Shown: in pieces, positions 11,653-13,080 of the stretch
How positions within the stretch are numbered: the stretch's first letter is position 1
Layout of the letters: each line of letters opens with the position of its first letter
DNA from: a virus
Virus record (IMG/VR): IMGVR_UViG_3300012919_000031
Coordinates: 1 to 27,209 of that record
Length of the DNA stretch: 27,209 nt
Direction: 5' to 3' (one strand)
Made by a program: the position numbers and the translations under genes
Notes under the pieces: model-generated
What the model was told of the DNA's origin: nothing
Seen by the model: the letters and a program-made list of their open reading frames with translations, nothing else
Databases searched by the model: none

Positions 11653-12777
11653 TTAGAATGCAGAAGGAGCAGAAGCACCAACATATAATTCTACAGCCGC
11701 AGCTGGGTTTAGGTAATCAGCACCCATTGCAAGACGACCTAAGATAACATCACCCTGATAAATCACGGATACGTCACCTGAAGTTACTTGTACTTGAGGA
11801 CCGATTGCTTCAACGCAACCAGCAGCTTCTTTCTGGAATATCAAACCACATGATTTGGCTCCTAACTCTGTGTTAGTACCGTAGTCGTTTTTAATTCCTG
11901 TTTCTGAATCAGAAGCATCTTCTGGAGTAGGTCCAACGAAAGAACCTAAGTTTGAAGGAGCAGTTTCTCCTGTTGTGCCACCATAAGCGACACCATATTT
12001 GCCAAGGAATGGAATATTCATTGACTTGTAGATCTTGATACCAGCGATCTCGATGACTCCGTTACCACCTTGTAAAGCAGTACCTTGTGAGTCACGGTTC
12101 ACTAGACCATTAGATCCGACAGCTTGAATTAAGCTGTAGTATTGTCTTGGGTTAAGAACACCAATTCTTCCATCACTAGAAACGCCTTTCTCATCCATTG
12201 CAGCGGCTGCATCGTAGAAAGCGTTGACGAGATTTGCAGAAGCATAAGCATCAGAATCATTAGTTGTTGAACCAACTCTGATCTGAGTACCGCCTGGTTC
12301 TACAAAACCAGTTTTTGTAATTGGTGAGGCAGCTCTTGCTCCTCGTGTAATTGCACGGAATACAAGTCTGTCATATTTCTCAGCAAGTGCGAAACCAATC
12401 TTTCTTGAGATTTCTGATCTCAAATCATAGTGAGCAAGTGTCTCATCTAATTCATAGACAAATGCTGAACTGATTAGTAGTTCATCACAAGTGATTGTTT
12501 TCTCAGCTACTGGAGGTGTTCCATCTGAGTTACCAAGAATGCTATTTCCAGGAGTATGGAACTCAGCACCGGTGCGACCTGTATAGATGAACTGCATGCT
12601 CTGACCGTTGGTTAGAGTACGCTTCATTACAAGATCTCTAGCAATTGTTTCGTGCTGGAATCCTTTAAACATCTCTCCTGAGAACAGCTTTAAGTAAAGG
12701 GCGCGTCTATCTCCAGCACTATTACTAGCACCTGGCATAGTAACGCTGGATTGCATCCCTGTAGACTGTTGAGCCAT
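11653..12777 (-). CDS. Major capsid protein, T7 gp10-like
   Basis: This 374-residue HK97-fold-type capsid protein starts MAQQSTGMQSSVTMPGAS. Recognisable gp10 elements are the N-arm LYLKLFSGEMFKGFQHETIARDLVMKRT, the phrase ITCDELLISSAFVYELDE, and the long spine helix region IGFALAEKYDRLVFRAITRGA. It builds the icosahedral shell around the scaffold. The C-terminus ends in ELYVGASAPSAF with no sign of a frameshifted 10B extension: the stop is followed almost at once by the terminator. The gene has its own ~300-base leader, so it is probably controlled separately from the upstream genes. The immediate upstream sequence lacks a good Shine-Dalgarno sequence. Confidence 0.95.
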   Translation of the reverse strand: MAQQSTGMQSSVTMPGASNSAGDRRALYLKLFSGEMFKGFQHETIARDLVMKRTLTNGQSMQFIYTGRTGAEFHTPGNSILGNSDGTPPVAEKTITCDELLISSAFVYELDETLAHYDLRSEISRKIGFALAEKYDRLVFRAITRGARAASPITKTGFVEPGGTQIRVGSTTNDSDAYASANLVNAFYDAAAAMDEKGVSSDGRIGVLNPRQYYSLIQAVGSNGLVNRDSQGTALQGGNGVIEIAGIKIYKSMNIPFLGKYGVAYGGTTGETAPSNLGSFVGPTPEDASDSETGIKNDYGTNTELGAKSCGLIFQKEAAGCVEAIGPQVQVTSGDVSVIYQGDVILGRLAMGADYLNPAAAVELYVGASAPSAF

Positions 12778-12812: not shown

Positions 12813-12847
12813 TTCACGCGTGAAAAGTTACGAGACTTATGTGTCTC
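12813..12847 (-). promoter_or_regulatory. Two adjacent inverted repeats in the capsid 5' leader
   Basis: GAGAC-ACATAA-GTCTC (12847-12832) can form a 5-bp hairpin, and TTCACGCGTGAA (12824-12813) is a perfect 12-base palindrome. They lie 36-70 bases before the capsid start. They could be transcript processing or stabilising hairpins, or protein binding sites. No T-run follows either, so neither looks like an intrinsic terminator. Confidence 0.45.
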
Positions 12848-12862
12848 ATTAATGTTTGTGGT

Positions 12863-12882
12863 CTATCCCACCGTAATTACGG
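12863..12882 (-). promoter_or_regulatory. Palindrome with a weakly T7-promoter-like string
   Basis: CCGTAATTACGG (12882-12871) is a perfect palindrome. Read further, TAATTACGGTGGGATAG shares TAAT, ACG and ATAG with the T7 promoter consensus TAATACGACTCACTATAG, though with different spacing. It lies 86 bases upstream of the capsid gene, where a late phage promoter is expected. There is no second copy in this window to compare, so this is only a candidate. Confidence 0.25.
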
Positions 12883-12892
12883 CTGATGGTAT

Positions 12893-12900
12893 CCTCCTTA
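12893..12900 (-). promoter_or_regulatory. Perfect Shine-Dalgarno sequence without an obvious start codon
   Basis: TAAGGAGG matches the 16S anti-Shine-Dalgarno sequence fully, but no ATG, GTG or TTG lies at normal spacing; the next bases are ATACCATCAGCC. Its GGAGG could also pair with the CCTCC of the tRNA-like hairpin just upstream. It may be a ribosome standby site, part of a switching helix, or a relic. Confidence 0.5.
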
Positions 12901-12917
12901 GAGGGCAAAAGCCAAAT

Positions 12918-12964
12918 TGAGTAGGGAGGACTCGAACCTCCCTGACCGCCTAACCGATTACTCT
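12918..12964 (-). ncRNA. tRNA-like hairpin resembling a T-arm plus acceptor 3' strand
   Basis: The minus strand has GGGAGG-TTCGAGT-CCTCCC, an exact T-arm pattern (GGAGG stem, seven-base TTCGAGT loop), followed by CTACTCA. GAGTA at 12963-12959 can pair with TACTC at 12923-12919, giving an outer stem around the T-arm. There is no anticodon arm and no upstream 7-base acceptor partner, so it is not a complete tRNA. It may be a remnant of a tRNA 3' half, an old attachment site core, or a structural mimic. The 5' side overlaps the last codons of the 17-codon ORF. Confidence 0.45.
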
Positions 12965-13003
12965 TGTGTAAGCAACGCCACGATATACGAAAGTAACTTT
13001 CAT
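12950..13003 (-). CDS. 17-residue downstream peptide under the riboswitch
   Basis: ATG at 13003 begins MKVTFVYRGVAYTRVIG and ends at TAG 12950. GGAG at 13014-13011 stands 7 bases before the ATG, good Shine-Dalgarno spacing, and begins 5 bases past the riboswitch pseudoknot strand. The YRGVAY core resembles the start of short cyanobacterial DUF4278 proteins (pattern TYRGVxY). Known Downstream-peptide RNAs precede ORFs of about 17-100 codons, so the size fits the lower limit. After the TAG the same frame stays open for 28 more codons to another TAG at 12863, so this could be a truncated longer gene. The function is unknown. Confidence 0.6.
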   Translation of the reverse strand: MKVTFVYRGVAYTRVIG

Positions 13004-13019
13004 GTGTCATCTCCATATA

Positions 13020-13072
13020 CCTAAGCCCCGTTCCATGCTTAGGAGTCATGCGTCCCGTAAGGGATGAACGGA
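13020..13072 (-). ncRNA. Glutamine-II riboswitch (Downstream-peptide motif), predicted
   Basis: The minus strand folds as P1 CCGTTC (13071-13066) with GAACGG (13033-13028), P2 TCCC-TTAC-GGGA (13064-13053), and a 7-bp pseudoknot between CCTAAGC (13043-13037), inside the P1 loop, and GCTTAGG (13026-13020), just after P1. CGTTCA after the helix start and the pseudoknot topology are the hallmarks, as I recall them, of the Downstream-peptide/glnA family found in Synechococcus, Prochlorococcus and marine phage and shown to bind L-glutamine. The 3' pseudoknot strand lies next to the Shine-Dalgarno sequence of a 17-codon ORF, the typical arrangement. The covariance model was not run; the call rests on helices, order and context. 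Confidence 0.8.
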
Positions 13073-13080
13073 CGTGGTTG

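Follow-up and report, generated by a model that had tools for sequence, protein, structure and literature searches.

Gene setting of the riboswitch locus

The window, i.e. the whole stretch of DNA analysed here (27.2 kb; IMG/VR virus record IMGVR_UViG_3300012919_000031), is a fragment of a T7-like cyanophage. Its minus strand encodes RNA polymerase, primase/helicase, DNA polymerase, exonuclease and ribonucleotide reductase, followed by the head-tail adaptor, scaffold, hli, psbA, small ORFs, the capsid protein, the tail and internal virion proteins. Upstream of the capsid gene lie a glutamine-II aptamer, a micro-ORF, a tRNA-like mini-structure and a further structured leader element (Table 1), the stop codon of the micro-ORF being separated from the capsid ATG by about 170 nt. 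The closest named relatives at the riboswitch locus are P-SSP7, P-SSP3/P-SSP2 and P-GSP1 with identities of 82-89%. A 66-aa ORF running across the riboswitch region (13049-12849) was dismissed as a mechanical ORF without support. A scan for sigma-70-type promoters near the riboswitch unit returned two matches compared to 1.9 expected. A Syn5-type phage promoter (ATTGGGCACCCGTAA; PMC3950665) in the capsid leader was rejected as well, the window containing no match at up to three mismatches and the leader covarying as RNA.

Table 1. Features of the capsid-upstream region, ordered along the window
Feature	Position	Strand	Remarks
Major capsid gene	11653..12777	-	PHROG major head protein, E=9.1e-83; downstream landmark
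Second perfect palindrome TTCACGCGTGAA, near capsid start	12813..12824	-	Conserved palindrome in relatives
Capsid leader element: P1 hairpin with AUAC bulge and 4-nt loop, palindrome, P4 hairpin	12856..12915	-	Covariation; not in Rfam
Perfect palindrome CCGTAATTACGG in leader element	12871..12882	-	Variants in relatives: CCGTCTAGACGG, CCGTCATGACGG, CCGTCGACGG, CCGTATATACGG
tRNA-like mini-structure: acceptor GAGTA/TACTC, T-arm GGAGG-TTCGAGT-CCTCC	12918..12963	-	Overlaps last codons and stop of micro-ORF
17-codon micro-ORF MKVTFVYRGVAYTRVIG, stop TAG	12950..13003	-	One-repeat DUF4278-like (YRGxxY); conserved core; third-position and synonymous excess
Shine-Dalgarno-like GGAG	13011..13014	-	7 bases before micro-ORF ATG; predicted mostly base-paired
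Glutamine-II aptamer (type 2 glutamine riboswitch, Downstream-peptide)	13020..13073	-	RF01704, 48.1 bits, gathering cut-off 33, E=5.7e-9
P2 stem CCTAAGC/GCTTAGG	13020..13043 (strands 13043-13037 / 13026-13020)	-	4/7 pairs changed on both sides; 96.2% paired
Pseudoknot 3' strand GAACG, within P2 loop	13029..13033	-	Assigned after crystal structure PMC6698751
P1 hairpin TCCC-TTAC-GGGA	13053..13064	-	RF01704 alignment; 3/4 pairs changed on both sides
Pseudoknot 5' strand CGTTC	13066..13070	-	Pairs with 13029-13033; invariant in 15-aptamer alignment

Identity and anatomy of the aptamer

At the gathering threshold of Rfam, RF01704 (Downstream-peptide) is the sole family that cmscan reports for the whole window, its match covering the full length of the model (positions 1-60), while the glnA-type glutamine riboswitch (RF01739) stays at 17.9 bits, below its cut-off of 35. 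A glutamine-II-like riboswitch on the minus strand, as the sequence-only reading had it, is thereby borne out, as are the GGAG, the 7-base spacer and the 17-codon ORF directly following the aptamer. The interval proposed for the unit, 12950-13072, is right in its coordinates except that the model match reaches 13073, one base further. The helix CCTAAGC/GCTTAGG had been taken for the pseudoknot but constitutes the P2 stem; the pseudoknot is formed by CGTTC and GAACG, which create the glutamine site in the crystal structure of the family (PMC6698751).

Covariation was analysed for 15 distinct aptamers of one length, in which 98.4% of the cells are paired compared to 88.3% in shuffled and at most 60.4% in slid versions. 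Double-change cells amount to 23, a number reached by none of 500 shuffles (mean 4.7), and to at most five in slid versions, and both helices, P1 and P2, are kept through compensatory change. The H-type pseudoknot CGUUC/GAACG and a long-range C-G pair are present, invariant and 100% paired in this alignment, as expected for a ligand site, and the ligand-site nucleotides (linking strand CGC, GGAACGGG; alignment columns 18-23 and 34-45) are invariant as well. A compensatory change within the pseudoknot is found in the related phage SS120-1, in which CGTTC..GGAACG is replaced by CGTTT..GAAACG and which is still matched by RF01704. The sequence-only reading had named a lack of such changes in related phages as counter-evidence, an objection that the SS120-1 sequence removes. 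Judged by covariance model, covariation, ligand-site nucleotides and context, we assign the window element to the glutamine-II riboswitches, and its copy presumably binds L-glutamine.

A gap of 13-22 nt separates the aptamer from the micro-ORF start in most contigs, a spacing in line with a translational switch. Folding predictions leave most of the Shine-Dalgarno region base-paired, its partner being early codons of the ORF in the window subgroup and upstream sequence in other phages, so that the expression platform is not uniform. In S-TIP37, S-RIP1 and C24 the sequence GTACGAA preceding the start codon is complementary to TTCGTAC at the 5' edge of the aptamer, a plausible alternative helix as judged by this complementarity. 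Nested-only folding of the window gives no switch, the mean unpaired probability of the ribosome binding site being 0.36 with the aptamer engaged or not; the polarity assigned here therefore follows the published family members. These act as ON switches, probably at the translational level (PMC6698751, PMC6316151), for which reason glutamine would raise rather than block translation of the peptide.

The micro-ORF encodes a conserved YRGxxY peptide

Among 60 distinct cores of the micro-ORF, the Tyr, Arg, Gly and Tyr residues of the YRGxxY motif are invariant. Pairwise differences accumulate at the third codon position (9670, compared to 4984 and 5432 at the first and second position), and codon pairs with a single change are synonymous in 4381 and non-synonymous in 1127 cases, i.e. 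the signature of protein-type purifying selection, by which the micro-ORF reads as a genuine micropeptide gene. The first Tyr of the core is encoded by TAT in 54/60 and the second by TAC in 51/60 cores; RNA pairing may act as an extra constraint on these codons, and not all of the conservation is necessarily at the protein level. The phage ORFs encode 13-43 aa, with S-RIP2 (79 aa) as the exception.

The pairing of aptamer and peptide is nearly strict. Sequence of 330 nt or more ahead of the capsid gene is available in 151 contigs; 94 of them carry the aptamer core within 700 nt, and a short YRG/FRG ORF accompanies it in 93 of these 94. Selection by the aptamer pattern alone gave 80 contigs, of which 79 likewise have a YRG ORF, the remaining one having only 24 nt after the aptamer. 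Most other cases in which one partner seemed to be missing come down to GTG starts or to variant aptamers that the pattern did not cover. S-CBP3 retains an intact peptide (MSIQVTYTYRGVKYTKTVNR) while its aptamer has lost conserved ligand-site bases, which argues that the micropeptide itself matters as a product in its own right. The degenerate S-CBP3 aptamer (L289, about 1160-1290) retains P1/P2-like pairing with changed ligand-site bases and has possibly lost or altered its ligand.

The phage ORFs do not reach the gathering cut-off of the DUF4278 family (PF14105; 25.3 bits), giving 13-22 bits for the last repeat or no match; the 17-aa peptide of the window is too short for this Pfam scan.

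Distribution in phages and relation to host units

Of 47 related T7-like cyanophage records, 32 match RF01704 at E<=0.001 and 30 exceed the cut-off. These 32 include all twelve isolates of the first set, from P-SSP7 to S-RIP1 and NATL1A-7 (S-SBP1 with a half match below the cut-off). In a second isolate set, S-TIP28, SS120-1 and S-CBP4 match as well, while no match was obtained in the fetched stretch of Syn5, P60, S-CBP2, S-CBP3, S-SRP01, DSL-LC07 and 7B11-B. Aptamer and peptide occur as a pair upstream of the capsid gene in most T7-like isolates examined (P-SSP7, S-TIP37, S-RIP1/2, S-CBP1, SS120-1 and others) and in about two thirds of the related contigs, being absent from about one third. 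We also observed the phage-type riboswitch, the peptide and the capsid leader on QCFJ01000008.1 (L228) from the Prochlorococcus single-cell genome AG-363-G03, which therefore probably stems from a phage infecting the sequenced cell.

The presence of the family in marine cyanobacteria, which the sequence-only reading had stated together with phages, was confirmed in 41 of 41 genomes of the genus Prochlorococcus with 2-8 copies each, compared to none of 97 other cyanobacteria across the phylum. The peptides encoded after the recovered host copies are 33-58 aa long and contain two or three YRG-type units, examples being MSLTYRGLKY..VQLTYRGKSYQS and MSLTYRGLKYNQ...VQLTYRGKSYQS; according to Pfam they belong to DUF4278 (36-39 bits, cut-off 25.3). 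This agrees with the description of the type 2 glutamine riboswitch as confined to marine picocyanobacteria, multi-copy, linked to DUF4278 and activating expression upon glutamine binding (review PMC6316151). Since RF01704 and DUF4278 are paired in the hosts and the phage ORF resembles the last repeat, the phage unit is best read, on sequence grounds, as a reduced copy of the host riboswitch-peptide unit.

Structured RNA upstream of the capsid gene

That the capsid gene is headed by a separate structured RNA leader, with or without the riboswitch and undescribed in Rfam, is well supported. Pairing in the 60-nt leader element amounts to 92.1% of the cells across 22 distinct sequences compared to 78.7% in shuffled and at most 56.5% in slid versions, and 53 double-change cells stand against 17.9 in shuffled sequences (0/500). 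The model built for the element scores 57.4 bits in the window and matches strongly at a single site in each genome, that of the capsid gene. With E<1e-3, 24 of 29 T7-like cyanophage records are matched; the match is weak in P60 and S-TIP28, and Syn5, S-CBP2 and SS120-1 of this set have none. In the 41 Prochlorococcus genomes it finds one place only, on a phage-like contig of a single-cell assembly. The element is seen in L002-L013 and L287-L296 independently of the riboswitch, and scanning the window and its relatives against Rfam returned no family matching it. A search for a leader 17-mer in bacterial genomes was discarded, as its 39 exact matches in 257 Gb are near the number estimated by chance (about 30) and fall mostly into unrelated organisms.

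Between the riboswitch and this element, a canonical T-arm loop, T[TG]C[AG]A, is present in 61 distinct contigs compared to 0.1% of shuffled stretches. The acceptor strands pair over at least 5 bp with their own partner in 74% of cases and in 22% when swapped between loci; the sequence varies and complementarity is kept. At the window site ARAGORN calls no tRNA gene and the Rfam tRNA model (RF00005) yields no match up to E=5. NATL1A-7 (L009, 1152-1222) and L050 carry a real tRNA-Gly(TCC) at the same place, which suggests that the mini-structure is a decayed captured tRNA; L179 and L180 have another full tRNA call at this site. tRNAs and T-arm/acceptor minihelices serve as processing signals, and the phage structure shares with them the acceptor pairing, the canonical T-arm and, in some relatives, the full tRNA-Gly at the same place, but differs in that most copies have no D or anticodon arm. 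In about 40% of the contigs a hairpin with the loop CACCTCAGAGTCGGA, belonging to no known family, takes the place of the tRNA-like part about 150-190 nt before the capsid start (L007, L010, L012, L137-L145 and many more).

The micro-ORF runs into the tRNA-like structure: of the 46 contigs with both features, 44 have 8-18 nt between its stop codon and the T-arm that follows. In the window, the acceptor strand GAGTA falls within the codons AGA GTA, and the T-arm follows 8 nt after the stop codon TAG. Part of the tRNA-like structure would be covered by a ribosome that terminates on the micro-ORF.

Discussion

The riboswitch family itself is known already, and what is new, as far as the open literature goes, is its position in T7-like cyanophages: open-access papers, the only ones searchable, place glutamine riboswitches in T4-like cyanophages and other marine phages, and we found in them no description of one at this position. 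Our data support a model, which we regard as likely, in which the phage carries a host-type riboswitch that turns on translation of a DUF4278-like micropeptide with a single repeat, and this peptide would in turn act on the host. According to this model, a T7-like cyanophage has taken over and reduced the host unit of a type 2 glutamine riboswitch joined to a DUF4278-type gene. Plentiful glutamine would bind at the pseudoknot and favour the folded aptamer, which would free the ribosome binding site and allow the micropeptide to be made. The peptide may then target host nitrogen metabolism or another host function, the unit representing a small auxiliary regulatory gene within the psbA/hli cassette.

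Compared to the glutamine-II/DUF4278 units of Prochlorococcus and marine Synechococcus, the phage unit has the same aptamer fold, the same ligand-site nucleotides and the same placement of the aptamer 13-22 nt ahead of a short YRG-type ORF. It differs by a compact P2 and linker (host linkers being longer), by lower RF01704 scores (36-59 bits, up to 71 in hosts), by a peptide cut to one YRGxxY unit and by its setting in the late-gene region of a lytic phage. Yfr6 of Prochlorococcus MED4 and SS120 (PMC1242208, PMC2518516) is similar in that a Downstream-peptide aptamer leads a 33-aa peptide (PMC2864571), and the 33-aa host peptides recovered here carry two YRGxxY units; Yfr6, however, is a host RNA of about 244 nt, whereas the phage unit belongs to a cluster of phage genes and its ORF mostly encodes 13-43 aa. 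The riboswitch of the tmRNA gene in methylophage Melnitz (PMC9004378) is likewise a glutamine riboswitch of a marine phage, but it is glnA-like (glutamine-I), found in a myovirus, tied to ssrA and has no DUF4278-like peptide.

The overlap of the micro-ORF with the tRNA-like structure raises the alternative that glutamine, via translation of the micro-ORF, gates folding and processing of the leader: ribosomes on the micro-ORF would block folding of the tRNA-like structure and its cleavage by RNase P/RNase Z, altering the 5' end and the lifetime of the capsid mRNA and thereby tying its maturation to host nitrogen. The position of the stop codon relative to the T-arm, the locus-specific acceptor pairing and the canonical T-loops are in line with such gating, and infection by P-SSP7 raises host RNase E (PMC9692554), so that protection of late mRNAs would matter. 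We nevertheless consider it unlikely, since a sizeable share of the riboswitch-bearing capsid contigs has no T-arm, many of them carrying the unrelated hairpin, and the ORF is hundreds of nucleotides away in some contigs.

Control of the capsid gene itself, as proposed by the sequence-only reading, would require that the riboswitch senses host nitrogen and acts via read-through, translational coupling or a common transcript. Its position upstream of the capsid gene is conserved, the capsid gene following within 3 kb in 66 of the 69 aptamer-selected contigs that extend far enough downstream, and the gap between ORF stop and capsid ATG is short in the window. This stable position leaves room for a capsid-related role, but the synteny may also reflect descent, and the unit adjoins psbA in many contigs. 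Against capsid control, the distance between aptamer and capsid varies from 254 to 1373 nt in the 46 aptamer-bearing contigs with up to two ORFs (at least 45 aa) in between, and several annotated genes intervene in 9515-10a and P-SSP10. Capsids without the riboswitch are common: in 67 distinct contigs that cover 1.7 kb or more ahead of this capsid gene, such an aptamer is present in 46 and absent from 21. The capsid gene also possesses a conserved leader of its own. The micro-ORF stop and the capsid start do not overlap, which makes classical translational coupling unlikely. Capsid control by the riboswitch is thus not supported and in our view quite improbable, the capsid is probably not its direct target, and the riboswitch most likely controls the peptide.

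That the unit is a hitch-hiking host cassette, gained with psbA and kept without a function of its own, would fit its location in the psbA/hli cassette region, its absence from about one third of the relatives and its occurrence with psbA in 34 and without psbA in 12 contigs, but is very hard to reconcile with strong covariation and protein-type selection across wide divergence and with its retention in most genera sampled.

Taking the unit as a reduced, peptide-directed ON switch, the selected YRGxxY micropeptide offers a route to the role of DUF4278 peptides in marine picocyanobacteria, in which regulation of glutamine synthetase is described as unclear (PMC6316151). As S-TIP37 is engineerable (PMC8776855), it provides a phage system for asking whether a lytic virus reads host glutamine. 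The conserved RNA leader of the capsid gene, absent from Rfam, is a by-product of this analysis more unusual than the riboswitch. Of 148 distinct contigs, 144 have a perfect palindrome of 8-16 nt no further than 70 nt from the capsid start, compared to 32% of shuffled sequences. In both leader palindromes the centre bases vary and mostly remain palindromic, which an RNA hairpin would not require; the pattern may stem from dimerisation of the RNA, from a dyad in the DNA or from a mutational process.
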